DNA of 64,000 bases from Chrysophaeum taylorii (lineage: Eukaryota > Sar > Pelagophyceae > Pelagomonadales > Pelagomonadaceae), in contig JAQMWT010000315.1 in assembly GCA_029834535.1 (NCBI GenBank), forward strand, positions 1 to 64,000, in the 5' to 3' direction. This document shows, in pieces, positions 2,478-16,440 of the stretch. Within the stretch, counting starts at the first letter, position 1; each line of letters starts with the position of its first letter. The notes under the pieces were generated by a model that was given only the letters and a program-made list of their open reading frames with translations, was not told the DNA's origin and searched no databases. Position numbers and translations under genes: made by a program.

Positions 2478-2738
2478 TGGAATTCTGTCCTCCAATGGAA
2501 GCCGGGACGTTCGCAGCGGGACGGGTTATGTCCGGGGGGCACAGAAGGAAACGTTAGCGACGAGATGGTTGTCAGTCAAATCGTGGTCTCCGCGCGCATG
2601 GTGACAAGCGCAGAATTTCCCAGGACGCGCCTTCCAGCCCCCCTCGTCTCTCGGCCCCTTGACTCTGATCCCACGCGCCACGGCGCTGGGATTAGCCTAC
2701 GCCCCATGCACTGGGCTGGCCTATTGTTAACTAGTTAG
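2478..2738 (+). repeat. SINE-like interspersed repeat, family 2
   Basis: This non-coding repeat starts in the GTTCGCAGCGGGACGGG region and ends in GGGATTAGCCTACGCCCC, a CATGCACTGGGC motif and a TTAG-rich tail. The same sequence with point differences recurs at 18790-19075 and 43530-43855, and its end recurs near 27620. Its core resembles part of the other SINE family at 57758-58133. The Copia element B sits in its tail. The pattern (short, dispersed, same 3' end, simple tail) is that of a SINE. No tRNA-like head could be confirmed by eye. Confidence 0.6.
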
Positions 2739-2933
2739 TAGAGATAGAAAAACTGAACTAGGGTTAGTACCCCCTGTTCTAGGGTTAGTTCACTTAACTT
2801 TGCCACCTTAGATTTAAGAAAACGCTGTGTCATTCACACCAGCTGTCCTCGATTAAGAGACAGATTCGAGGACAGACTACCACTGTTCTCACACTCTGCT
2901 GAAGGGTAACACAGTTGTGATTACTGTTCTCTA
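2739..2933 (+). repeat. 5' LTR of Copia element B
   Basis: This 195 bp direct repeat matches the copy at the other end of the element. It has a 6 bp terminal inverted repeat (TAGAGA/TCTCTA) instead of the usual TG...CA. A GGTATCAG motif at 2953-2960, just inside the element, is a candidate tRNA primer-binding site; that role is inferred. Confidence 0.85.
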
Positions 2934-3109: not shown

Positions 3110-5240
3110 ATGCAACAGCAAGCTCAAGCGTACGAAGCTCGGCATAAACAAGAGATGTTAGACAAAGAAACTCGCTTGATGGCACAAATAAGCGCTTTGT
3201 CCACCCAAGTGCAAGCAACGCAAGCACCACCACCTGCCGTCGCTGCTGCGGCTCCGCCTCCCACTCCGGCTCAACAAGATCCCAAGTCCAAGGTTAACAC
3301 CTTTAGTGACCCCCCCTAGCGCCGTCCTCAAGTCGATGGACAACGCCCAAGTCACACCCCAAATGCTTTCGTTTCGCGTCATGCAATTGTTCGTCGAACA
3401 TCTGATGCCTGAAACAGGTATAACTCAGTACTTCCTACAGGGCTTCTACACGTGGGAATCCGTCCTGCGCGGATCTAACGATCTCGCTGACGCTCTCCTA
3501 AGCCACTGTATCGACGAATACGACAAGGGCCCCAACAACCACTCTACCGCCGAGAACACGCAAGATTTCCAAGGCCGTTACGTGTATTACAAGGGTGCCT
3601 ACCGCAAGTTCGGCAAACACTTCCTGGACGACGTCTACGAGCCAAAGCTCCAAGCACTCAAGAACCAAGACAAGGACCCGACCGATATAACAAAAGGCAA
3701 GCTATACCCGATCACCCAACCGCATCTCCAAGGAAAAGAAGCCGACTTCATCGTATATCTCCGCGAGACCGTACACCCCCTATTTCGCCGATTCCTACAT
3801 GCCGGTAGCGACTCCGTCAAGCACCCAGCATACGACGAAATCGATGCACTTGGATCCTCCTACCCGATAGGACTCGAATTCGTGCTGCAAGTTCGCCTCG
3901 CACTCGATAAGCATGCGGGCTATAACCACATCCATCATGCGCATTATGTTTACAATGCCTTTCTGGACACGCCGTTCAACCCTGAAATCCATGAGCCAGC
4001 TCACTACATCGATTACATGCGTCATGTCCAGCAGCAGCTCCGCCAGATCACCACGGACGCTTCTCTCCAACTTCCCGACAACAAGATCCTCGAAGAAATT
4101 CACCAAATTCTTCGATTCAAGTACCCCCCAAGCTTGCTTGACTCCCGCGCCCCAACACACATCAAAGGCTTTGCACGTCTTGCTAACTGTTTGCGTACTC
4201 CCAACGATTCGCTATTACTCGACGAAGACAAGGACGCCATCCACCACCTTCCTAAGCTCATCGCCCGCATCACCGTTATTTCAACGTTTGAGCGCCACTT
4301 TTGGGCTCACCTCAAGCCTCACCCCACTCTTAACTTCAAGCCTTTGCGCTTTGTTATGGACTTTGGTCGTCTGCCAACAAATGATAAAGACAACCCGCGC
4401 TTTCGCTCCCGCGGTCATGGTCTCCACCTCACCGAAGACGATAATGAAACATCTCCCTCTGAAGACGCAACCCCACCGGACCCCATTGAAGCCACCGACC
4501 CCGTCGCCGTTTTTCTCGCGGAGGCCAATCTTGATCAAGAGGAAGACAATGATCTTATTCACCAACTACACGCCTACCGCAAGAAGCAAATTTCGCGGCA
4601 CGTCAAAAAGCCCCCTCCAGGCAAAAAGCCCCCTAATCCTCGCTCCCCGTCTTACTACGACGTCAATGACAGTCCTAAGCCCAAGGCCACCCCGGTCACC
4701 CCACCGAAGAACAAGCACCGTCCCCGCGCTCCTCCTGTCACCCCTGACAAACGCGAGCACCCGCATCTTCGAAAGGTCACCTTCCCAACGCAACCTCATT
4801 CACCCAAACCATCTACTCCAGACCAACGCTTCAAGGTCTCCCTTCGTGAAGTTCGTCGCATACTCCAAACCATTCGCAATCTTAGCCAAGCCGGTCGCCA
4901 ACATACGTCTAGCTCCGAGCGTATGAACAAGCTCATCAACCTCATCACCACCATTTCCGACGAGATACTTCTTTCCGAAGCCGAAGCTGACGCCGCCGAA
5001 TTTCTCCAGATGCTAACGTCCGATCCCCAAGATGATCAACCTGATGAGGACGACGCCGAAACCGATGCCAATGACCAAGAAGACAAAGGACATCTCGGCT
5101 TCTATGACGATAACGGTCAGCTCGACCTCTACATCGCCTCCGTTCCCGACACCCAAGATGAAGAAGACTCCGCCGAAGCCTACGCCAAACGTCACAATGA
5201 CTACATGCGTGCTCTCCACAAGAGTCAGCTTTTTCCCTGA
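3110..5240 (+). CDS. gag-like region of Copia element B
   Basis: The region opens with a Gln/Glu-rich coiled-coil-like stretch and a Pro/Ala linker. Then comes a long reading frame of about 640 residues whose first 350 residues are helical and fairly hydrophobic, as in Copia capsid domains. The last 290 residues are very Pro-, Lys- and Asp/Glu-rich, as in nucleic-acid-binding gag tails. No classical CCHC knuckle was found. The assignment rests mainly on position between the 5' LTR and the protease. It would form the particle shell of the retroelement. Confidence 0.6.
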
Positions 5241-5399
5241 TGGTTACCGACGACGCCTGTGACGACAACCACGCCTTACTTCATCAGGCATCTAACCTCA
5301 AGATGACGAATTTCCCGACTTCATCCACTATCTCCAGACGAGTCGCGGATTTTCTTTGTACCACTTACACTCCAGACAAGACCTCAAAGAAGACTAGCT

Positions 5400-5760
5400 C
5401 CCTGCACGGATGCAATGGCCCCGGCGTAGAAACCTCATTGATTGACGGTGGCGCATCTTTTTGTTTTACGCGCACAATTCAAAATTTTGTTCCCGAGACC
5501 ATCCGCCGCATTCCCGAACATACTATTCATATGGAACGAGGCACTCTTACGAGTCACTTTATCGGCGTCAAACCGTTGTATCTGCAGGCTGCAGGTCTCT
5601 CTTCACAGGATACAAAAGACAACACAGGTTACGTTTTATATCTCGTATTTATGGTAGTCCCGCAATTTCGACAAGGTCTTCAAGTTATCGCAACATCTCA
5701 GCTCAAAGCTCTGCATGTACAAGCAACCGACCCACCCCTGCCCCACGAGCCCTACCTTTA
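5400..5760 (+). other. Aspartic-protease-like region of element B
   Basis: A LIDGGAS motif lies about 70 residues into the long pol reading frame that opens near 5240. It matches the D-(S/T/G)-G-A/S catalytic loop of retroelement aspartic proteases and is followed by a beta-rich stretch of about 90 residues. Its place between gag and the methyltransferase-like region fits a Copia protease, which cuts the polyprotein. Confidence 0.6.
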
Positions 5761-6054
5761 TGAGCTTCTCACGTCATCAACCTCAGACCACCACGATTAT
5801 GCAACACTAATAGGAAAGACCGCCGTTGTACTCGCCACTCGCAAACCCAACGGCCTATTGTCCCTGCCATCCCATCCAAAGCAAACATTCGCCACCGTGG
5901 TCAGCTTTCACACAAGAAAACGAATGTCACTCCAGGATGAGATTGCACACATCACACAGCATGTCGCCAAGACACGCTCACAATCGCACACGCTTGACTT
6001 CGCGAAGTTACAAAATCATTCCATGTATCTTACCGAACTGCTCAACTTCCAATC

Positions 6055-6645
6055 TCCTGTTGTCTACTATGCCTTCAATGGCTCCGCAGGCCTCTCTGTG
6101 CAAACACAAACCCCTCTGCTCAAAACAGCCATTATTGCAGGCGGACTTCACCAGGAGGGTTTCGACACCTTTCGCAAACGATTCGACAAACGCCTAACTG
6201 TCGTAGTTACCTGCGAAATCAACGATATCTTGCGCACCCGTGCGCAACACCTCTTTCCGCACGCCACGCACTATGCGGACCTCAGAAACCTCAATGTCGC
6301 ACTCCAAACCGGCAAAATAAGACTCCCGACATTCGACCTCGCAGTTTTTACATTGCCCTGTCAGCATCTCAGTGTCATGAAAGAATACGACGGTTATGAC
6401 ACTCCGGTCACCGCCGACCTCTTCGTCACCGAGCAACTCCGCTTCGTTCGTTGCACGCTCCCGACTTATACCATTGTCGAGAACGTCCCTCCCAACCCCC
6501 GAACCCACCAAGAATATGCTCAACTCGCCACAGGTTATCAGCGCTTAGGCTACTTCCGCCATTCCGGCGTCTACAATGCCTCTTTTTTTGGTGATGTCAT
6601 CAGCAAGACGCGCTATCTCGCTGTGTATGCCCGGCACCCGCTCAC
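6055..6645 (+). CDS. C5-cytosine DNA methyltransferase-like domain inside Copia polyprotein
   Basis: Five conserved blocks of C5-cytosine methyltransferases appear in the right order in the pol frame (residue numbers from 5240). Motif I-like FNGSAGLS is near residue 277 (SAM-binding turn). A Glu-containing motif II-like CEINDILRTRA is near 325. Motif IV-like FDLAVFTLPCQHLS is at about 365-378, with the PCQ catalytic cysteine loop. Motif VI ENV is at about 416. A motif VIII-like SKTRYLAVYA is near 455. Family knowledge: the PCQ cysteine attacks C6 of cytosine and ENV positions the base. No target-recognition domain is recognised. The block is short (about 200 residues), like a core catalytic domain. 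Capture of cytosine methyltransferases by LTR retrotransposons has been reported in some algae and protists, so the call is plausible. Activity cannot be judged, and this is part of a broken element. Confidence 0.72.
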
Positions 6646-6959
6646 CGGCTACACTCTCGAGAAAACCGCCTCCCCTTGGTTAACCTCGCCTCCGAGCAAG
6701 CTTCATCTCCTCGATCCCAGTCCCACCATCCCTGACGATCTCTGGATCGCCAAACCCGTCCTTCGTGGTAAAGTGCCCCGTTCTACCTTGCACTACTACC
6801 AGCACAAGGCTACCTACTCCTACGAGCCCGCAAACGCCTCGAAACTCTCGATTTCCGAGAATGCCCGCATCTGCCAAATGCTCGCACGTCTCACCAAGCC
6901 CTTCACGGATCTCGGTTTAGATGCCGACGGCACCCCCTACGCCACAATGGCGTCCATTT

Positions 6960-7300
6960 CCCACCTACTGGTTTTCACTCTCCTGCACAACCATTTGTCA
7001 CAACACCCCACTCTCGTCGCTTGGAATACCATCCGCTGTTTTCATGCCTCAGAGTCTCAATGTGCTTACCATTTGGATGGAGCCATCACCGGCACCGCCG
7101 CTACTGCCGTCGCATGCGGCTACTTCTCGCGCGCCTCCCTCACCCTCCATTCCAGGCCCCCTCAGATTTTGGACTGTTCCCATCAACCCGCAGTCTTTAC
7201 CCCAACGCACTCCTTTTCCCTGGATGTTCCCAAGGGCACCGCCTTTCTGGTCGTCGCATACACCACCTCCTTGGCCGCCGCTCACAGCTGTACGCGTCCG
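6960..7300 (+). CDS. 2-oxoglutarate/Fe(II) dioxygenase-like (TET/JBP-type) region inside Copia polyprotein
   Basis: Downstream of the methyltransferase-like block, in the same frame, is the segment QCAYHLDG with an H-x-D pair at residues 611 and 613 (numbered from 5240). Then come a Gly- and Leu-rich beta region and a second His at 657 inside FTPTHSFSL. A KGTAFLVVAYTT strand follows. The HxD...H spacing of about 44 residues and the final hydrophobic strand ending in AYT resemble the double-stranded beta-helix of TET/JBP-like dioxygenases and the dioxygenase-like segments I recall from algal and dinoflagellate Copia polyproteins. In the known family, the two His and the Asp bind Fe(II) and the enzyme oxidises 5-methylpyrimidines. 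The call rests on this short pattern and is tentative. Confidence 0.5.
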
Positions 7301-8084
7301 TCCACTTGGGTCCACTATACGAATCGTTCGCATCCTGGCTTTGCCGCGATCGACTCACGAGGGCGAACTACTCTCGATGACCCCAAGGGACTCATTATGT
7401 CCAAAGCACGTCCCACTTACGCGGACTATGTCGGCCACATCGGAGACACGCTTCAGAAGAGCACCAAATGCTTGCTACTCGGTCACTGGCTCGCCTTGCT
7501 GCTGATCTCTCCAGACCACATCCGCTATGCGACCCTCAACGAAATCGCAAAGTTTGGACACCACTCGGACTCGGAACTGCTCCGACTATTCGAACAGCAC
7601 CCGCCGTACTTCGCGTTCAAGGCACTGGCCAACGCCGTCCCGCACCACATGTTGCAGGCAAAGTACAGCGCTGTCCTCGCATTCCACGAATCGCAACACC
7701 ACGTGAACTTTCACATAGAATGGGCAACAATACGCAATGGCATCCCCAGCCCAGGAGACATCACCCAGGTTGCAGACTTCTTCATGAGCATCTCCAGCCG
7801 CCTCCTAGCAGAGGAAGACCTGAACCTCACCTCCCTCTTCAATGCCGTTGCAGATGCTCACCATGATGCGATCCGCAAACCAAGCAAATCGACAAACCTC
7901 GAGACGCTTCTGGCCGAGGCAACCGTTGCTAAGATCCGAGTCGACAAGCGACCCAGCCCCCCCAGCGCTTCGACTGCCGCTCTGCCTCCCTTGCAACAGC
8001 CCGGCACCACTCAGCACGCCAAAAGAGTGCTTTTGGTCACTCGCTGGCACCGCATACACCCCAGCAAGCAGAGATTCTTCGCCG

Positions 8085-9080
8085 CACCATTGCCGCTAAT
8101 GTAACGAATCTCCGCCCAGGTGATGATCGGTATCTGCAAGACTGCAGCGAGTGCAAACGCTGTCAATCGCATGTCAGTTTCCGTCACAAGAACACTTCCT
8201 GGTCACAGGACGAACTGGCCTACGCTCCTGGCCAACACCTCCACATGGACGTGTCATACCCGAGCATCCACAAGTGCTACGGCGGATTTCGCTACATCAT
8301 GCACTTCGTGTGTATCATCTCAGCACACAAATGGGTCTATTTCCTACGGAAATTAGACGCACAAGATGTTCTGGCCGGCATCCTCTACGTGTTTAATGTG
8401 ATCAAAGTCGAATTTGATGTCCACGTGAAGATCATATCCTCTGACGTTTTCTCAACTTTTCGCTCTGAAGCCTTCCACCCTCTTAAGGTGCAGCTTAGTC
8501 TCCAATTCCAAGTCCTTGGTCGCCACCTCCACCAGAGGAATTTTGCTGAAAACATTTTCAAAGAAAACATCCGAGGCACCGTGGTTCGTCTCCTCAACCT
8601 TCGCAATGTGCGCATCGAAGGAAAGTCTATTGCCGCTGAGTATTATCACCCATTTGCTCTCCTGCATAAGATCCAAGCCGACAACCAGCGCTCTCATGGA
8701 CTGCCCTCGCGCACAAACATGACATGCACCGTTCCCCGGCGTATCATGTCACCCATGGCACCGCTCTTAAAGCTTCTCCCCTTTGGCGAACCTGTCACTT
8801 TCGTCTACCCTCAAAGTCACAAACTGGAACCCTCCAGCGTCTCTGCCTCTTACTTTCATAGCAACAACTATCTCCCGAACCTCCCCGGTACGGACCGATT
8901 TATCCGTGATGTTCACAGCTCTATCCTGCTTGTACATCTAGGGCGATATGGAAAAATTGTCACCTCTAACGACTTTCATGTCGACGCAGACATGCCCGTC
9001 AACCGTAACAAGGAGATCGCACGGATCAAAGCACTCGCACAGATCCCAACAAAGGCACGACAAGAGGACCCGCTACCAGC
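8085..9080 (+). other. Integrase region of Copia element B
   Basis: A Cys-rich stretch (CSECKRC) with nearby His gives an integrase zinc-binding-like head. It is followed by the core with HMDVSYP, a central beta/alpha stretch and the IISSDVFSTF segment, consistent with an RNase H-fold DDE core. Downstream GEPVTFVYP resembles the Copia post-core sequence. From about 9.1 to 9.5 kb there is an acidic Pro-rich linker, typical between integrase and reverse transcriptase. It would insert the cDNA into the genome. A decayed homologue lies near 23.7-24.1 kb. Confidence 0.75.
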
Positions 9081-10129
9081 TATAAGCGAACAGAGAATGC
9101 CGGAAGTTAGACAGGAATCAAAAAATGAGGGCGAGACTCACGAAGACGAGCACGATGATAAACCTAGCGATGACGACGAACACAAAGAACCGGATCCAAC
9201 TCCCGCTGCTGATTCTAGTCCCATCTGCAACGCGACACCTGAACAGGATTTTTCGTTCCTCAACCGGCCACCTCCACCGGATGGTAGCATCCCGATGCCC
9301 AAACGAAAAGATCGCCTAGAGGTTGTTCTCGACGATTCAGGTTTTACTCCAGTTCTCGTGCATCGCAACCAGAGCGATAAACTCAAGGCAGATCTCAATG
9401 ACGAACGTGGATTCCGGATCCCTAAGGATCAACTCTACATCGTTAAACGTGTTGACGATGGAAAACTCTTCACCAAACGCATTCTCGCCTCAGAGTACGG
9501 TCGCAACTGGAAATACCAGCAAGAGCAATCCACGGCTCACGCCACAACCAACATGTCCAGTACATTGATGTTCCTCATCAGTGTCAGCGCTCTGCACCAG
9601 GGCCACGCCGCCAGCATAGGCTCTGCTCTCAATATTCGAAGAGAAGCTAAGCCGCCTAATGGTGTCCCGAAAGGATGTCTCCTAGCAACTACCACACAAG
9701 ATTACGGTACCATGGGCGGCACCGCACTGGATTTGCAGAGAGAAACCGACGCGGAACTCTTGTATGTTGACTTCCCCAGGAAACCATACCACTCGTCTGT
9801 GTTGGTTGACCACCTTGACAACGACAATTCTGATCTCGAGAACTACATGTGCAATGACGAAATGTCACCGGCAGAGTACTATGCGCGTCAATGGAACCAA
9901 GAATTCTGTTGTATGGGCTCCTCTCTTTCATGGGACATCTCCGCGCATCAGCACTACCATCTAGCTTCTCGCATGCCTTCATGCATGATTCTAGCGAACT
10001 CGGACACCTCTTCCTATGTCAAAGTGATCCAAATCAAGACATCCTCGAAGAAGTCATGGACTATGATTTGGAGCACATCGATCACGTCGTATTACAGCTC
10101 GTGACCGCTGAAGACATCGTCTATGAGCC

Positions 10130-11655
10130 AGAAAAGATTGTCGAACTTAAAGGACTCAGCGAAGAAGATAAGTTAAAGCATATCGCCTCGATTCGCAAGG
10201 AAATTGAAGGATTGTGCTCCAATGGTGTATTCCAGCTTGAGCCTTTACCACCAGACCGTTCGTCCATCTCGACAAAGCTCGTGTTGAAGATCAAGTATTT
10301 TGCTGACGGCACTCCCGACCGCTATAAAGCCCGTCTAGTCGCCCGAGGTTTCTTGGCACGTGTGGGCATTGACTTTTATGCCACATCCTCCCAAACCGCA
10401 ATGCTCGCTACAAACCGGCTACTGCTCGCCATCGCTGTGAAGCACAAGCTCCCGGTCGCGCACGCGGACATTCCTCAGGCATTCATCCAATCGGCACTCG
10501 ATCGCCCAGTATGGATCGACTTTCCTCGTGGAATACGTGTCTCGCCAAATCTTATCCAGCAGATACAAAAGAACCATCCAGAGTCGAAGCTCGCTCTCCG
10601 ACTCGTCAAGGCTCTCTATGGCCTTAAACAGTCAGCTTTGTTGTGGAATATTAAGCTCGACTCATTTCTTCGACAACATGAGTTCGAACGCTCACAAGTC
10701 GATACTTGTCTATATATCAATTGGGGTCGATCTATCAACCAATGGGTATTACTATCCGTTTCAGTCGATGACTTATTGATCACTGGTACCAACACTGCCA
10801 AAATTGCGTCTCTTCGCACCGCTCTGGAGACCGAATATGGCAAGAGTACATGGCATGACAACATCAGATCCTTTCTTGGCATCGATGTTCACTACAATGT
10901 CTCCTCTGGTCATCTCACTATGAATGTAGCAGCGAAGATCACTAAGATGCTCGCTGAGCATAAGCTCAATCTGCATAGCCTAGACGTCCCCTATTCGGAC
11001 ATCCTCGTCCAAAAACCTTCCAATAAACTTCTATCAGACTTGGCTCCTACCTTAGACGTATTACGCCAAAACTTCCCTTTCTACTGTGGCACCAGCATTT
11101 ATTTGTCTGTCACATGTCGGCCGGACATCACCACCTTGTGCAACAAATGCTGCAAGGGGATGCACAACCCTGACCAAACCCATCTTCTGCACTTGTATGT
11201 TTTACTTCGCTACTTAAGGGGCACTCCGAATGATTCCCTTGACTATTCATCCGACAGCCCGTCTATTACCCCCTTTATTCAGCATCTGATCGCTCACTAT
11301 CCTGAACTGCATCATCTTCGTTCACCTATTATCTGTTTTACTGATGCAAGCTTTGCTGAATGTTCTGACCCTCGCTTACGATCCAATTCTGGTGTATGTA
11401 TATTCGTCTTTGGCAATCTCGTATTTTGGTCTAGCAAACGCCAGACTCTTACTGCCAAGAGCACCATGGAAGCTGAACTCATCGCCGCCAGCGCAGCTGC
11501 TGATGAATGTCACTGGTTCTACAAGCTTTTCTCCTCCCACCCCTATCTATTTTCGTGTGATCAAGCTCACGCTATTCCCTTACTTATCGACAACGCTAGC
11601 GCACTACATGTCGCTAATCATCCTGAAGTCAGTGCTCCTTCTCGTCATACCAACT
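10130..11655 (+). CDS. Reverse transcriptase and RNase H region of Copia element B
   Basis: This is a clear RVT_2-type (Copia) reverse transcriptase: YKARLVARGF, AHADIPQAFIQ, LVKALYGLKQS and the SVDDLLITG catalytic loop (a form of YVDD), all in order. About 150 residues later comes the Copia RNase H: FTDASFAE, SGVCIFVFG, FWSSKRQ and STMEAELIA. Together they copy element RNA into DNA and remove the RNA strand. This is the most certain part of element B. Confidence 0.92.
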
Positions 11656-11960
11656 AAAGAGAATTTCGCATTCGTGACTACCAAGCTAACTCGATCACTA
11701 GACCTCTCTGGTGTCCTACTCTCTACCAGGTCGCTGATCATTTTTCGAAGCTCCTTCAACGCAACTTATTCCACAAGTTCAAAAACGCCTACGGCGTTCA
11801 TTCCACTTCATCCTCCCCACCATCCCATCAAGTCACTCTTTCCGCTACTCTTCCACCGTACGACTCTGTCCAGAACACTCTCTACATTCTTGTCGATGAT
11901 AAGACGCTTCCCGCGTAGTTTGATCCAGATTTCACTCCCCACGTTCAATCTGTGAGGGCA

Positions 11961-12370
11961 TAGAGATAGAAAATCTGAACTAGAGTTGGTTGTCAGTCAC
12001 ATCGCGGTCTCCTCGTCGCAAGGCGACAAGCTTGATGGTCACTCTCCGCCGACCGACCTTTCGGCGCTCCTCGTCTACAGGCCCGTGATTCCGGACTGGC
12101 GCCTGTCGGTCCGGCCTGGCTCCCATGCTCGGGAGAGGTCTGAAGTTAGTTAGTTAGTTCAATCTGTGAGGGCATAGAGATAGAAAATCTGAACTAGGGT
12201 TAGTACCCCCTGTTCTAGGGTTAGTTCACTTAACTTTGCCACCTTTGATTTATTGAAAACGCTGTGTTATTCACACCGGCTGTCCTCGATTAAGAGACAG
12301 ATTCGAGGACAGACTACCACTGTTCTCACACTCGGCTGAAGGGTAACACAGTTGTGATTACTGTTCTCTA
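11961..12370 (+). repeat. 3' LTR of Copia element B, split by a SINE
   Basis: The LTR starts at TAGAGA (11961), right after a purine-rich GTGAGGGC tract, and ends TCTCTA at 12370. A 174 bp SINE piece (11984-12157) interrupts it and is flanked by a 40 bp direct repeat (11944-11983 and 12158-12197). Without this insert the LTR is about 196 bp and close to the 5' copy. Confidence 0.82.
11984..12157 (+). repeat. 5'-truncated SINE (family 1) inside the 3' LTR
   Basis: This is nearly identical to the last 175 bp of the full SINE at 57758-58133, ending in GAGAGGTCTGAAG plus a (TTAG)n tail. It lies between 40 bp direct repeats of LTR sequence, so it arrived after the Copia element. 5' truncation with a fixed 3' end is the mark of target-primed reverse transcription. 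Confidence 0.8.
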
Positions 12371-13110
12371 GTTAGTTTGTTATTCCCTTATTGTATGGTT
12401 TGCATCTCCCAGGCTCAACAAGCCAGAGTACTTATTCTAAGTATTGTGGTTTAGAAATCCCAGGCTCAAAGAGCCAGAATTTGTGATTCCCTTATTATTA
12501 TTATTATTATTATTATCAACAACATGGTTTGTAACTCCAAGAGCCAGAAAGGATGAGCGCAGAGGGAAACAAGGAAGAGGGAAACAAGGAAGACGCAAGA
12601 ACACTACGGATCATTATTGTGCTGTGCAACTCCCAGGCTCAAAGAGCCAGAATGGATGAGCGCAGAGGGAAACAAGGATGGAGCAAGAACGCAAAGAGGC
12701 GCAGAAAAGTAGGAAGAAGCGAGCAGGGCAAGAAGGAGTCACGCGAGGTGCTGTAGAAGAGGTCGAGAGAAAAAGAAGAGAGTGTAGCGGTAGGCGTGGT
12801 CATAAAGAAAGACGCGACAAGACGACGCTAAAAGACGGTCGCAGCATGATGCCAGACCTTCCAAACAGGCCTCCCTACTTTGGTCCGGGCGAGGCGGCGG
12901 CCAAATGTATGTCGCGAGAATGCAAGGTAACCACACGCCATCAGCATCAACGTCACGAACAACCAGGATGTCAATAAGCTCCGCCGGCAAAGGACCTCGC
13001 ACGAAGTCATAATCAGCGACGGTGCCATATGCAACGGGAAGGACAGACGAGCGCCATATGGTCGTTCTTATTATTATGGTTTGCAACTCCCAGGCGTGCG
13101 CAGAGAGCCA
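12371..13110 (-). mobile_element. LINE 3' untranslated ends, several stacked pieces
   Basis: On the minus strand this region matches the 3' untranslated part of the LINE at 61846-64000 (-) and of the one at 56560-57540 (+). The shared end has the motif TTTGAGCCTGGGAGTTGCA, followed by an AAT-rich tail. The end motif occurs at least four times (near 12400, 12455, 12630 and 13085), partly with an (ATT)n tract at 12495-12520. This means several truncated insertions or tail duplications. No reverse transcriptase or RNase H part remains here. Confidence 0.7.
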
Positions 13111-13494: not shown

Positions 13495-16422
13495 TCAGAG
13501 TTTGGCCCGGAGGTAGGCATCTTGGGCTGGTTCGCTGTCCGAAGGCCACTCAAAAAACGGAACGTGGGCAACATACCACCCGAGCCGCCGCAGGAGCCGC
13601 GACTTGAAGCGCGAGGACCCAGTTTTAGTGGTGGCGCCACCACGGAGACTCCGGAGATAGTGGCTCGGGCCCTCGACCTCGACGCCACACTTCTTCGCAG
13701 GCTGGGCCATGTCGAGAGAAAGTCCCTCCGAAGTCGCATGGTCGATGACGTGGATCCATCCAACGCGCTCGAGCGCGGTCGCGACATCGCGCCGGAGCAG
13801 CGATGGATCCCGAGAATGATAATCGCGCCGATACGCCGCTCGCAGCGTCTCTCGGTGCTCGGACAACGGGGACGCCCGATCGGGCCAAGTCAGTTCGACG
13901 TGCAACAGCACCAGGTACAGACGCGAAAGGTCGCAGTCCTCAAAAGTGGTCGGATCACCAACTGTGGCGGCGACCTCCGCAAAAAGGCCGGGGTCCTTCC
14001 AGTCGACGCACGCGAAAGCCCACGCCATTTCAGCAAGGTCCCGAGGGTTGAACTCTTCAACGCGCGCGCTCTCGGCGATTCTACCGAAGACGTCGTGGGG
14101 CGCCTCCACGCCTGTCGTCGTAGCAAAGGCCCACGCCGTGTTCGCGAGGTCCCTCGAGGTAAGGGCGTCCAGTCGCGACGCGACGACCGCGCCCGCGATC
14201 TCCTCGAAAAGGCAGGGATCGTCTACGCGCGCCGTCGCGAACGCCCGCGCTGCGGTCGCGAGGTCTTGCGCCGTGAACTCGCAAAGCCGCGCCCGAGTTG
14301 CTATGGCGATCGCGTCCAAGAGCAGCAGAGATGCCTCGACCCCGGCAGTAGTAGTTGTTGTTGCAAACGCCCACGCCGTGTTGACGAGGTTCTGCGGGCT
14401 GAAACCGTCCAGTCGCGCGAGAGCTTTGGTCGCAATGTCGGCAAAGAGTTCGGGCGCCTCGACGCCCGCGGTCGCCAAGCCCCACGCCGTGTTGGCGAGA
14501 TTTTGCTCGTCGAATTCACGCAGCCGCGACCGCGCAACGTCGCAGATCACTTCGAAGAGGCGAGGTGCCTCGACTCCGGCTTTTGCGTAGGCCCACGCCG
14601 TCGTCGCGACGTGATACGCTTTGAAATCGTCGAGCCGCGATCGACTCAAGGCGTCGGCGATCGCCTCGAAGAACCCCGGCGCCTCGTCGCGAGCCGCCGC
14701 CGTCGTCGTCGCAAAGGCCCACACCGTGTTGGCGAAATCCAGCGGTTTGAAATCGGTCAACCGCGACCGAGCGGCGTCCGCGAGCGCGCCGAAGAGTCTT
14801 GGCGCCTCCAAGCCCGCGGTCGCAAAGGCCCACGCCGTGTTGGCACAATCCTGCGGGTTGAGCTCCCATAGCCGCGACCGAGTCATGTTGGCAATCGCGT
14901 CGAAAAGCTCGGGAATTACTTCGCCGGCCGTCGCGAACGACCACGCCGCGACGGCGAGATCCTGCGATTTGAACTTGTCCAGCTGAGACAACGCGGCCTT
15001 GGCGATCGTGGCGAAGAGTCGCGGGGACTTGAAACCCGCCGTCGCGTAAGCCCACGCCGTGTTGCTCAGGTCTTGCGCGTTGAACTCGTGCACCCGCGCG
15101 ACGTTCGCGACGGCTTCGAAAAGCTCGGGAGCTTTCTCGCCCGCCGTCGCGAACGCCCACAGCGTCATGGCGAGATCCCGCGGGTTGAAGTCGCCCAGCT
15201 TGTCCCGAGCCCAACTCGCGCTCGCCTCGAACAGCTCCGGCGCCTCGACGCCCGCTTTTGCGAAGGCCCACAACGTATTGGCGAGGTTTTGCGCGTTGAA
15301 CTCGCCCAATCGCGACCTAGCCGCGCGCGCGATCGCGCCAAAGAGCTCGGGCGCTTTGGCGCCCGCCGTCGCAAACGCCCACAACGTGATGGCGATATCT
15401 CGAGCCTTAAAGTCGCCCAGCTTACGCCGAACCTTGTTGGCCATCGCCTCAAAGAGGTGGGGCGCGTCGACGCCCGTTTTCGAAAACGCCCACAGCGTGT
15501 TGGAAAAGTTTTGCGCGTTGAACTCGTCTAATCGCGACTGCGCGACGTCCGCGATCGCGCAGAAGAGCTCGGGCGCCTTGACGCCCGACGTCGCGAATGC
15601 CCACGCCGTGGTAGACAGGTCTTGCGCGTTGAACTCGCCCAATCGCGACCGAGCCGCGTCTACGATTGCTTCGAACAGACGTCGCGCCTCGACGCGCGCC
15701 GTCGCGAACGCCCACGCCGTGTTGGCCATGTCGATTGCGTTGAACTCGCCCAGGCGCGTCAAAGCCATGTTTGCGATCACGTCGAACAGTTCGGGCGTGT
15801 GGACATTCGCCTTTGCAAAGGCCCACGCAGTGTTGGCGAGATGTTGCGCGTCAAACTCGAGCGCGCGTCGTCGACAAACGTCGGCTAGTGCCGTCACGCG
15901 CCAGTCGAGTCGCAGGCTCCTGTTCCCGCCTCCAAACTTGGCGACACGATGCGCGGCAGTCGACAGATTTCGAGCGCTAAATCGTTCTCCCTCGGTCGCA
16001 AAGAGAGACAGAATCGTCTCGGGGGTCGCGCCGCGACGCGTCATCTCCTTCCCCCACCCGACTTGTTGCCAAAGCGGTGCCTCCGCCTTCTTGTTGCCTT
16101 CTCGCGCCTGCTCCGTGCGACCGGCATCCCGCCGCATGTCATCACGGCGTCGATCCTTCTCCGAGACCCGTTGTCGTCGTCTCGGCGACCTGTCTTCGAG
16201 ACGTCGACCTTCATCTACAATTTGCCGTCTTGGCGTACGAGAGCGCCGCAGATCGACGCCCCCGCGATCACCCTCCTGCCGCGACCGCTTTGCCCTTCGA
16301 CGCTCGTAAGACGCTGGGGACTCGTCGCGGCCTCTTAAGCGTCTCTCACGTCGCGAGCCACTCGACCACTGGTCATCGCCAAGCATGACGTGAACTGTTG
16401 TTGAACAGTCCGTTGACGACAT
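13495..16422 (-). CDS. WAFA-repeat protein with C-terminal RAP domain (organelle-type RNA-binding protein)
   Basis: The product is a single-exon protein of 975 residues. Residues 1-120 are very Arg-rich and disordered. Then about 17 helical repeats of 36-40 residues follow, each with the signature NTAWAFA(T/K)AGVEAPELF. These belong to the octotricopeptide/FAST-kinase-like helical repeat class. Residues about 900-965 form a RAP domain: LSLDMA, GVEVEGPSHYLR, a RLLRRLGW segment and VPFFEWP. Family knowledge: such proteins bind and process RNAs in mitochondria or plastids. An organelle role is inferred, because no clear transit peptide precedes the Arg-rich stretch. The start at 16422 is the first Met of the frame. 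Only 3 bp lie between this ATG and a block of nested repeats, so the original 5' UTR or a longer N-terminus may have been displaced. Confidence 0.88.
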   Translation of the reverse strand: MSSTDCSTTVHVMLGDDQWSSGSRRERRLRGRDESPASYERRRAKRSRQEGDRGGVDLRRSRTPRRQIVDEGRRLEDRSPRRRQRVSEKDRRRDDMRRDAGRTEQAREGNKKAEAPLWQQVGWGKEMTRRGATPETILSLFATEGERFSARNLSTAAHRVAKFGGGNRSLRLDWRVTALADVCRRRALEFDAQHLANTAWAFAKANVHTPELFDVIANMALTRLGEFNAIDMANTAWAFATARVEARRLFEAIVDAARSRLGEFNAQDLSTTAWAFATSGVKAPELFCAIADVAQSRLDEFNAQNFSNTLWAFSKTGVDAPHLFEAMANKVRRKLGDFKARDIAITLWAFATAGAKAPELFGAIARAARSRLGEFNAQNLANTLWAFAKAGVEAPELFEASASWARDKLGDFNPRDLAMTLWAFATAGEKAPELFEAVANVARVHEFNAQDLSNTAWAYATAGFKSPRLFATIAKAALSQLDKFKSQDLAVAAWSFATAGEVIPELFDAIANMTRSRLWELNPQDCANTAWAFATAGLEAPRLFGALADAARSRLTDFKPLDFANTVWAFATTTAAARDEAPGFFEAIADALSRSRLDDFKAYHVATTAWAYAKAGVEAPRLFEVICDVARSRLREFDEQNLANTAWGLATAGVEAPELFADIATKALARLDGFSPQNLVNTAWAFATTTTTAGVEASLLLLDAIAIATRARLCEFTAQDLATAARAFATARVDDPCLFEEIAGAVVASRLDALTSRDLANTAWAFATTTGVEAPHDVFGRIAESARVEEFNPRDLAEMAWAFACVDWKDPGLFAEVAATVGDPTTFEDCDLSRLYLVLLHVELTWPDRASPLSEHRETLRAAYRRDYHSRDPSLLRRDVATALERVGWIHVIDHATSEGLSLDMAQPAKKCGVEVEGPSHYLRSLRGGATTKTGSSRFKSRLLRRLGWYVAHVPFFEWPSDSEPAQDAYLRAKL

Positions 16423-16440
16423 GGTGACATTCTAACTAAC

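Follow-up and report, generated by a model that had tools for sequence, protein, structure and literature searches.

Does a retrotransposon of the Copia type carry a cytosine methyltransferase of its own and, if so, what could be gained by keeping such an enzyme inside the Pol polyprotein? The question is raised by a locus of the pelagophyte alga Chrysophaeum taylorii, lying in a 64,000-nucleotide stretch of contig JAQMWT010000315.1 that was analysed at its full length (the window), where an earlier note had recognized a series of cytosine-C5 methyltransferase (MTase) blocks within a Copia element. The answer to the first part is that a C5-cytosine MTase domain in this element is supported by sequence profiles, by profile–profile comparisons with controls, by the fold of a low-confidence model and by the conservation of the catalytic residues; as judged from sequence, the domain is real and under selection in a group of algal Copia elements.

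The domain resides in the second open reading frame (ORF) of the element, ORF2 (5240-8104). The profile search with PF00145 (DNA_methylase), proposed at the outset as a check, gave a match over the cut-off (hmmscan; E 4.5e-7, 30.1 bits against 22, profile positions 46-155), and the same match is found in eight of the ten copies of the family that were scanned. ORF2 is also matched by a PHROG profile named "DNA methyltransferase" (E 2.8e-8), while TIGR00675 (NCBIfam dcm) yields E 1.8e-7 but 31.1 bits, under its curated cut-off of 100.65. Furthermore, the profile of the family aligns with seven reference C5-MTases far above 60 shuffles (hhalign), and the structure prediction, the other check proposed, returned for the first 290 residues of the domain a low-confidence model with a class I MTase (Rossmann-like) fold resembling C5-MTases, with ~12–20% identity in the fold comparisons. 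On the other side of the ledger, the window protein alone has no match at E < 1 among PDB sequences and the family profile finds there M.HhaI only at E 0.049; neither the window protein (~8000 candidates scored) nor its family alignment found a homologue in a large protein database, and the viral contigs searched gave no match.

The domain and its parts, in window positions, are:

6122..7690, + strand: C5-cytosine MTase domain, starting at the motif I-like strand and ending shortly after the motif X-like ANAVP, with approximate limits (PF00145, hhalign with shuffles, model of the first 290 residues)
6122..6163, + strand: better motif I candidate, KTAIIAGGLHQEGF (model strand, column conservation)
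6353..6373, + strand: motif IV, LPCQHLS, with the catalytic Cys (copy alignment)
6476..6496, + strand: motif VI, VENVPPN (copy alignment)
6575..6631, + strand: motif VII/VIII, NASFFGDVISKTRYLAVYA (copy alignment)
6690..7440, + strand: conserved middle region, where the target-recognition domain would stand (no family match; 6863-7441 searched)
7520..7651, + strand: motif IX/X-like sequence, IRYATLNEIAKF...ANAVPHHM (hhalign, copy alignment)

Conservation was followed in 35 aligned copies, obtained from 36 matched loci after L006, which is the same place as L028, had been dropped. The catalytic Cys of motif IV is present in 33 of the 35 (one gap, one Met), the Glu and the Asn of motif VI in 32 each, and motif VIII, which in this family reads SKTR and has no Gln, retains its Lys in all 35 and its Arg in 34; the Cys, Glu and Arg of motifs IV, VI and VIII occur together in 30 copies and the motif IX/X-like Asn in 29. 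The blocks LPCQHLS, ENV (within 6476-6496) and SKTRYLAVYA (within 6575-6631) of the earlier note were thus placed correctly, but its choice of FNGSAGLS (6074-6097) as motif I is probably wrong: the mean column identity is 0.84 against 0.96 for KTAIIAGGLHQEGF, most copies have FNGSADLS, FTGSADLS or the like, with AD where the window has AG, and the first strand of the model, TAIIAG (aligned strand TAIIAGGL), lies inside KTAIIAGGLHQEGF, which aligns, moreover, beside an LLCSGLST stretch of a transcript protein (P0001, see below). The better motif I is probably TAIIAGGLHQEGF, within 6122-6163. Nor does the domain end at 6645, as first read; motif IX/X-like sequence extends to 7651, the alignment of IRYATLNEIAKF...ANAVPHHM with the C-termini of reference MTases scoring 25.2 against a maximum of 18.6 in 60 column shuffles, a result weak in absolute terms (E 6.1e-4). 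This C-terminal alignment and the shift of motif I set the domain at ~6122-7690. A resemblance, seen by eye, of the middle region to a TET/JBP-like dioxygenase was dropped, there being no Pfam match and no PDB profile match; a genome search with PF12851 (TET/JBP) was silent, as were its controls.

Is the domain maintained? In the 70.8 Mb of genome searched, the MTase segment of the window family (family 1) has at least 150 matches, the best 150 of 617 candidates, fragments and likely duplicate contig pairs included, and its reverse transcriptase (RT) at least 90 (86 of 2228 candidates scored). Ten copies free of stops give, for the MTase, a pairwise ratio of non-synonymous to synonymous substitution (dN/dS) of 0.219, each of the 45 pairs being below 1; the protease part has 0.151 and the part that follows the MTase 0.319, and with all 35 copies the MTase value is 0.237. 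The middle region (0.225) differs little from the catalytic half (0.201). The MTase domain is therefore maintained by purifying selection.

Three observations concern the copies themselves. Contigs C10/C297 and C25/C521 hold near-identical matches at almost the same coordinates and are probably duplicated haplotypes in the assembly. Synonymous divergence among the ten stop-free copies declines along ORF2 (5240-8054), from 0.69 in the protease part through 0.60 and 0.31 to 0.17 (uncorrected) at motif IX/X and 0.19 after the MTase, which suggests mosaic copies or gene conversion. At L051 (C37:180200-184900) the protease and RT matches are ~2.2 kb apart and other sequence takes the place of the MTase region; this locus is possibly an internally deleted derivative.

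The attribution of the carrier to Copia was borne out by the RVT_2 match (E 3.1e-39, 135.5 bits) in a Pfam profile scan of ORF 9858-11657. The features of the element, apart from those of the MTase, are:

2734..2738, no strand: 5′ target site duplication GTTAG, 5 bp (sequence)
2739..2933, + strand: 5′ long terminal repeat (LTR), TAGAGA...TCTCTA, 195 bp (direct repeat and alignment)
3192..5240, + strand: gag-like ORF, stop-to-stop frame, 682 residues ("gag" judged from position)
5240..8104, + strand: ORF2, 954 residues, with the protease-like part, the MTase and the start of the integrase (frame listing)
5438..5458, + strand: protease-like active-site motif LIDGGAS (by eye)
8040..9000, + strand: integrase-like region with HHCC and D,D,E recognized by eye, ends approximate, largely within frame 7933-10104
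10224..10964, + strand: Copia RT, RVT_2, in ORF 9858-11657 (Pfam match)
12175..12370, + strand: 3′ LTR, 196 bp (alignment to the 5′ LTR)
12371..12375, no strand: 3′ target site duplication GTTAG (sequence)

The two LTRs align with 189 identities, 6 mismatches and 1 gap, and their borders (2739 on the left, 2933/12370 on the right) recur in copies C96 and C514; the Copia RT, the LTRs and the GTTAG on both sides together identify a Copia insertion whose LTRs are nearly identical. The gag-like ORF has no Pfam match over the cut-off and ends in TGATG (5238-5242), where its stop codon and the start codon of ORF2 share bases, an arrangement found likewise in several other copies. The D of the protease-like motif is present in 32 of the 35 copies, the other three being gapped. 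The integrase-like region of the window copy has no Pfam match, and the Pfam support is weak also in C96, where rve is found with E 0.0013, under the cut-off. The description of the element as well preserved holds only in part: the pol of the window copy is distributed among three frames (5201-8104, 7933-10104 and 9858-11657) and must be considered broken, although the MTase stretch is uninterrupted; ORF2 departs from the frame of the other copies near residue 940. In C96, on the other hand, protease, MTase, integrase and most of the RT are encoded in a single frame of 1952 residues that stops at a TAA within the RT/RNase H match, and the protease motif, the HHCC and the RT follow one another in this frame in the Copia order protease, integrase, RT/RNase H.

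The MTase is located, as originally proposed, between the protease-like motif and the integrase-like region. The space that it occupies can be appreciated from the distance between protease motif and integrase HHCC, which is 878 residues in C96 and 183 in L073, one of the canonical Copia elements of this genome. Canonical elements with gag_pre-integrase occur at no fewer than 150 loci (the best 150 of 206 candidates); of the three that were read, apparently one family, L072 repeats the order of L073 within a single frame and L071 is broken, and there is no space in them for an MTase. The LTRs (2739-2933 and 12175-12370) were also noticed for their sequence, in which two CTAGGGTTAG blocks resemble telomere repeats, the target duplication being GTTAG.

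Is the domain confined to one family? A Copia RT search of the genome (at least 150 loci, the best 150 of 1670 candidates) brought to light six new RT loci, which all belong to two additional families, named 2a and 2b, whose RTs are 58–65% identical to each other and 31–35% identical to that of the window family. One longer stretch of each (L049 and L050) displays, upstream of the integrase, SPC/PPC, EMTPP and GDYQ(A/S)RERW, with EMTPP as motif VI and YQ(A/S)RERW as motif VIII; the MTase-like stretch is in two frames in L049 and unsplit in L054 and L055. PF00145 is not recognized in this stretch by a Pfam scan, and a profile of seven family-2 sequences aligns in the right register with the reference MTases, scoring 37.2 against 22.7 for the best of 60 shuffles. 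Although the MTase is very divergent, its Cys and Glu are kept in all five family-2 rows of the alignment (A2). The 2a segment has at least 147 genome matches (the best 147 of 1003 candidates) and a dN/dS of 0.06 (28 pairs, 8 loci), and its MTase ORF lies downstream of a protease-like ORF with a DTCA motif and upstream of the integrase; family 2b was read on its MTase–integrase side.

All eight 2a loci L052-L059 have, between the protease-like ORF and the MTase-integrase ORF, a single in-frame TGA (GTATGACGCAAG) at oriented position 1399-1401, readthrough of which is a candidate mechanism for setting the product ratio. A family 2b fragment, 97% identical to L050, occupies positions 1-2438 of the window, directly upstream of the element, and at 13498-16431 (− strand) lies a host-like gene that contains a 111-bp repeat and has the domains FAST_1 and RAP.

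Relatives of family 2 were found elsewhere. A search of genome contigs with this family gave no match, and a search with its alignment retrieved two mmetsp transcript proteins, P0001 (E 8.6e-94) and P0002 (E 3.5e-19). PF00145 is recognized in P0002 (E 1.2e-10, over the cut-off) and falls just under it in P0001 (20.2 bits); the alignments of P0002 with family 2 and with the window family have E values of 8.3e-18 and 5.7e-6, respectively, neither alignment being shuffle-controlled. In a tree of 18 rows, having as references nine of the ten sequences fetched plus DNMT2 and DNMT5 of the host, each on a long branch, and built without DNMT1 and DNMT3, a branch with support 96/92 separates the window family, family 2, P0001 and P0002 from the 11 reference MTases. 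The direct comparison of the profiles of families 1 and 2 remains within the shuffles (23.4, maximum 25.0; C-terminal parts 12.5, maximum 18.5), and the link between the two is drawn from their common match to the references, from P0002 and from the tree. These data, on a thin sampling, fit a single acquisition of the MTase in a common ancestor of the Copia families, and the presence of a related domain in two further families makes the phenomenon wider than one captured gene.

Which cytosine methyltransferases does the host itself possess? A genome search with PF00145, which may miss intron-rich or very divergent genes and did miss family 2, scored 123 of 474 candidates and found 57 places, of which 55 overlap the window family. 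One of the two outside is DNMT2 (PDB 1g55, E 3.9e-39); beside it lies a chlorophyll-binding protein (PF00504), a sign that the host is photosynthetic. In the other, a match to PDB 7r76 (E 3e-143), an entry that bears the label "DNA repair protein Rad8" and that we take to be Cryptococcus Dnmt5, is combined with an SNF2 domain; match and SNF2 domain together indicate an enzyme of the DNMT5 type.

What, then, does the domain do? That it marks the element's own DNA or alters host methylation, as the earlier note suggested, is possible. A conserved MTase domain placed just ahead of the integrase in several Copia families suggests that these elements may chemically mark the DNA copies they make, and the explanation that we prefer, tentatively and at somewhat less than an even chance, is that a Pol-borne C5-MTase methylates the new complementary DNA (cDNA), thereby shielding or marking the incoming element. 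The enzyme would be translated as part of Pol, would be packaged in the virus-like particle with the RT and the integrase, would be released by the element protease and would methylate cytosines of the fresh cDNA prior to integration or during it. The element would probably gain by this that its incoming cDNA is protected against the host, or that it arrives with a tolerated mark which the host DNMT5-type enzyme could propagate. Observed in this analysis are the homology with its catalytic residues, the position of the domain, the purifying selection, the two related families and the transcripts of relatives elsewhere, whereas the packaging, the release and the methylation of the cDNA are predicted.

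Several results weigh against this explanation. A C-to-T excess at CG was sought in the 35 copies and none was found, the frequencies being 550/20791 (0.0265) at CG, 395/14591 (0.0271) at CHG and 1329/46035 (0.0289) at CHH, with A/T transitions at 0.0300. Among the 12 copies with the fewest changes, the frequency at CG (59/7696) relative to that at non-CG sites (141/22507) is 1.22 (p 0.19), in the other 23 the ratio is 0.90, and CG exceeds non-CG in 16 of the 35. Since there is no CG decay, a standing methylation of the copies is unsupported; the result argues against CG marks that persist on the integrated copies, or else reflects good repair, and is compatible with a brief methylation of the cDNA. 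Mild context differences (CCTT 0.049 and ACGG 0.048, mean 0.028, 64 contexts tested) were left aside, and neither the observed/expected CpG of the element (1.04 vs 1.21 in the rest of the window, tracking its lower G+C) nor that of the LTRs (0.34 and 0.56 over only ~195 bp each) is counted as evidence. To these results must be added that motif I is without the usual FxGxG and motif VIII without the Gln of QxRxR, that the model is of low confidence and fibrillarin-like chains tie with C5-MTases by Z, and that canonical Copia elements devoid of the domain coexist in the genome, from which it follows that not every Copia requires it.

The unusual motifs I and VIII are also what could be expected if catalysis had been lost and the domain had become a nucleic-acid-binding or structural part of Pol, acting, for instance, in the choice of the integration site. 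We consider this unlikely, yet worth keeping in view: the EMTPP of family 2, its invisibility to the Pfam scan with PF00145 and the conservation of the middle region about as strong as that of the catalytic half would fit, but a pure scaffold would have no need of the Cys, Glu and Arg kept together in 30 of the 35 copies, nor of the Cys and Glu kept in all the family-2 rows. An active enzyme could instead have RNA as its substrate, either the genomic RNA of the element or the tRNA primer, as DNMT2 does, and thus stabilize the RNA of the particle or tune priming. In the particle, the domains of Pol encounter RNA ahead of DNA. The lack of CpG decay in the element DNA agrees with an RNA substrate, and passages of PMC5890265 raise RNA methylation in the case of SymbioLINE-Dnmt, an enzyme that gave no DNA methylation in yeast; nevertheless, no sequence feature found here indicates RNA and the retrotransposon clade stands apart from the host DNMT2 (a long branch) across the 96/92 branch. 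We judge this alternative improbable.

Two further alternatives concern origin and identity. The direct comparison of the families, confined within its shuffles, would be explained if each Copia family had captured its MTase separately; this, too, seems improbable, given that in family 2a the domain likewise follows the protease and precedes the integrase, that P0002 aligns with both families and that the tree places the families together with both transcript proteins, across the 96/92 branch from the references. As to a chance resemblance within a divergent pol region, with no MTase at all, the pLDDT (predicted local distance difference test) of only 29.4 in a single-sequence prediction of the whole domain and the lack of a homologue in the large database could be invoked, but the shuffle controls, the independent Pfam and PHROG matches and the fold comparison contradict it and leave it hardly any probability.

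How does the predicted Pol-borne MTase compare with known systems? Passages of de Mendoza et al. (2018, PMC5890265) describe C5-MTases in LINE, DIRS and Gypsy retrotransposons (SymbioLINE-Dnmt, SymbioDIRS-Dnmt3 and KnitGypsy-Dnmt3), with which the present element shares a C5-MTase in a retrotransposon frame and purifying selection, the enzyme being part of Pol, and of the DNMT3 type, in DIRS and Gypsy. Those elements, however, belong to dinoflagellates and a charophyte, whereas the present RT is of the Copia type, the MTase is placed after the protease and ahead of the integrase, and a single genome has three families with related domains; the Copia elements of Symbiodinium are described in the same passages as having no DNMT domain. 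One sentence of PMC12344493 names "LTR Copia" with a DNMT, citing the 2018 paper, which reports Gypsy; this may be a slip or an unseen detail, and the passages of PMC12344493 give no Copia element, position or host for the DNMT. The passages of PMC9998398, PMC12477816, PMC6338049 and PMC3145265 describe no Copia with a C5-MTase, and in the passages of the open-licence PMC literature no description was found of an MTase common to several Copia families. A Copia clade bearing a C5-MTase thus seems, within these passages, new beside the LINE, DIRS and Gypsy cases. Some DIRS elements have Dam-like MTases (PMC5890265), again an MTase in a retrotransposon but of the adenine type and, according to that paper, structurally unrelated. 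The bacterial and phage C5-MTases (PF00145, M.HhaI type) share with the window domain the catalytic core, with motifs IV and VI and with a motif VIII that in the window family has no Gln, and the fold, here modelled; unlike them, it has a long conserved middle region and is fused into the Pol polyprotein.

A wider reading, which we regard as doubtful, is that of an old Copia clade that gained its cytosine MTase before the three families split and whose elements would be the only candidate de novo DNA cytosine MTases of this alga, the host keeping only a DNMT2 of the tRNA type and a DNMT5-type maintenance enzyme: the parasites would write and the host would copy. Cytosine methylation is a main weapon of eukaryotic hosts against retrotransposons, and a cytosine MTase borne by the elements and kept by selection would turn this weapon around. 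If the elements were indeed the sole de novo writers, the source of new methylation in organisms having DNMT5 would become testable.
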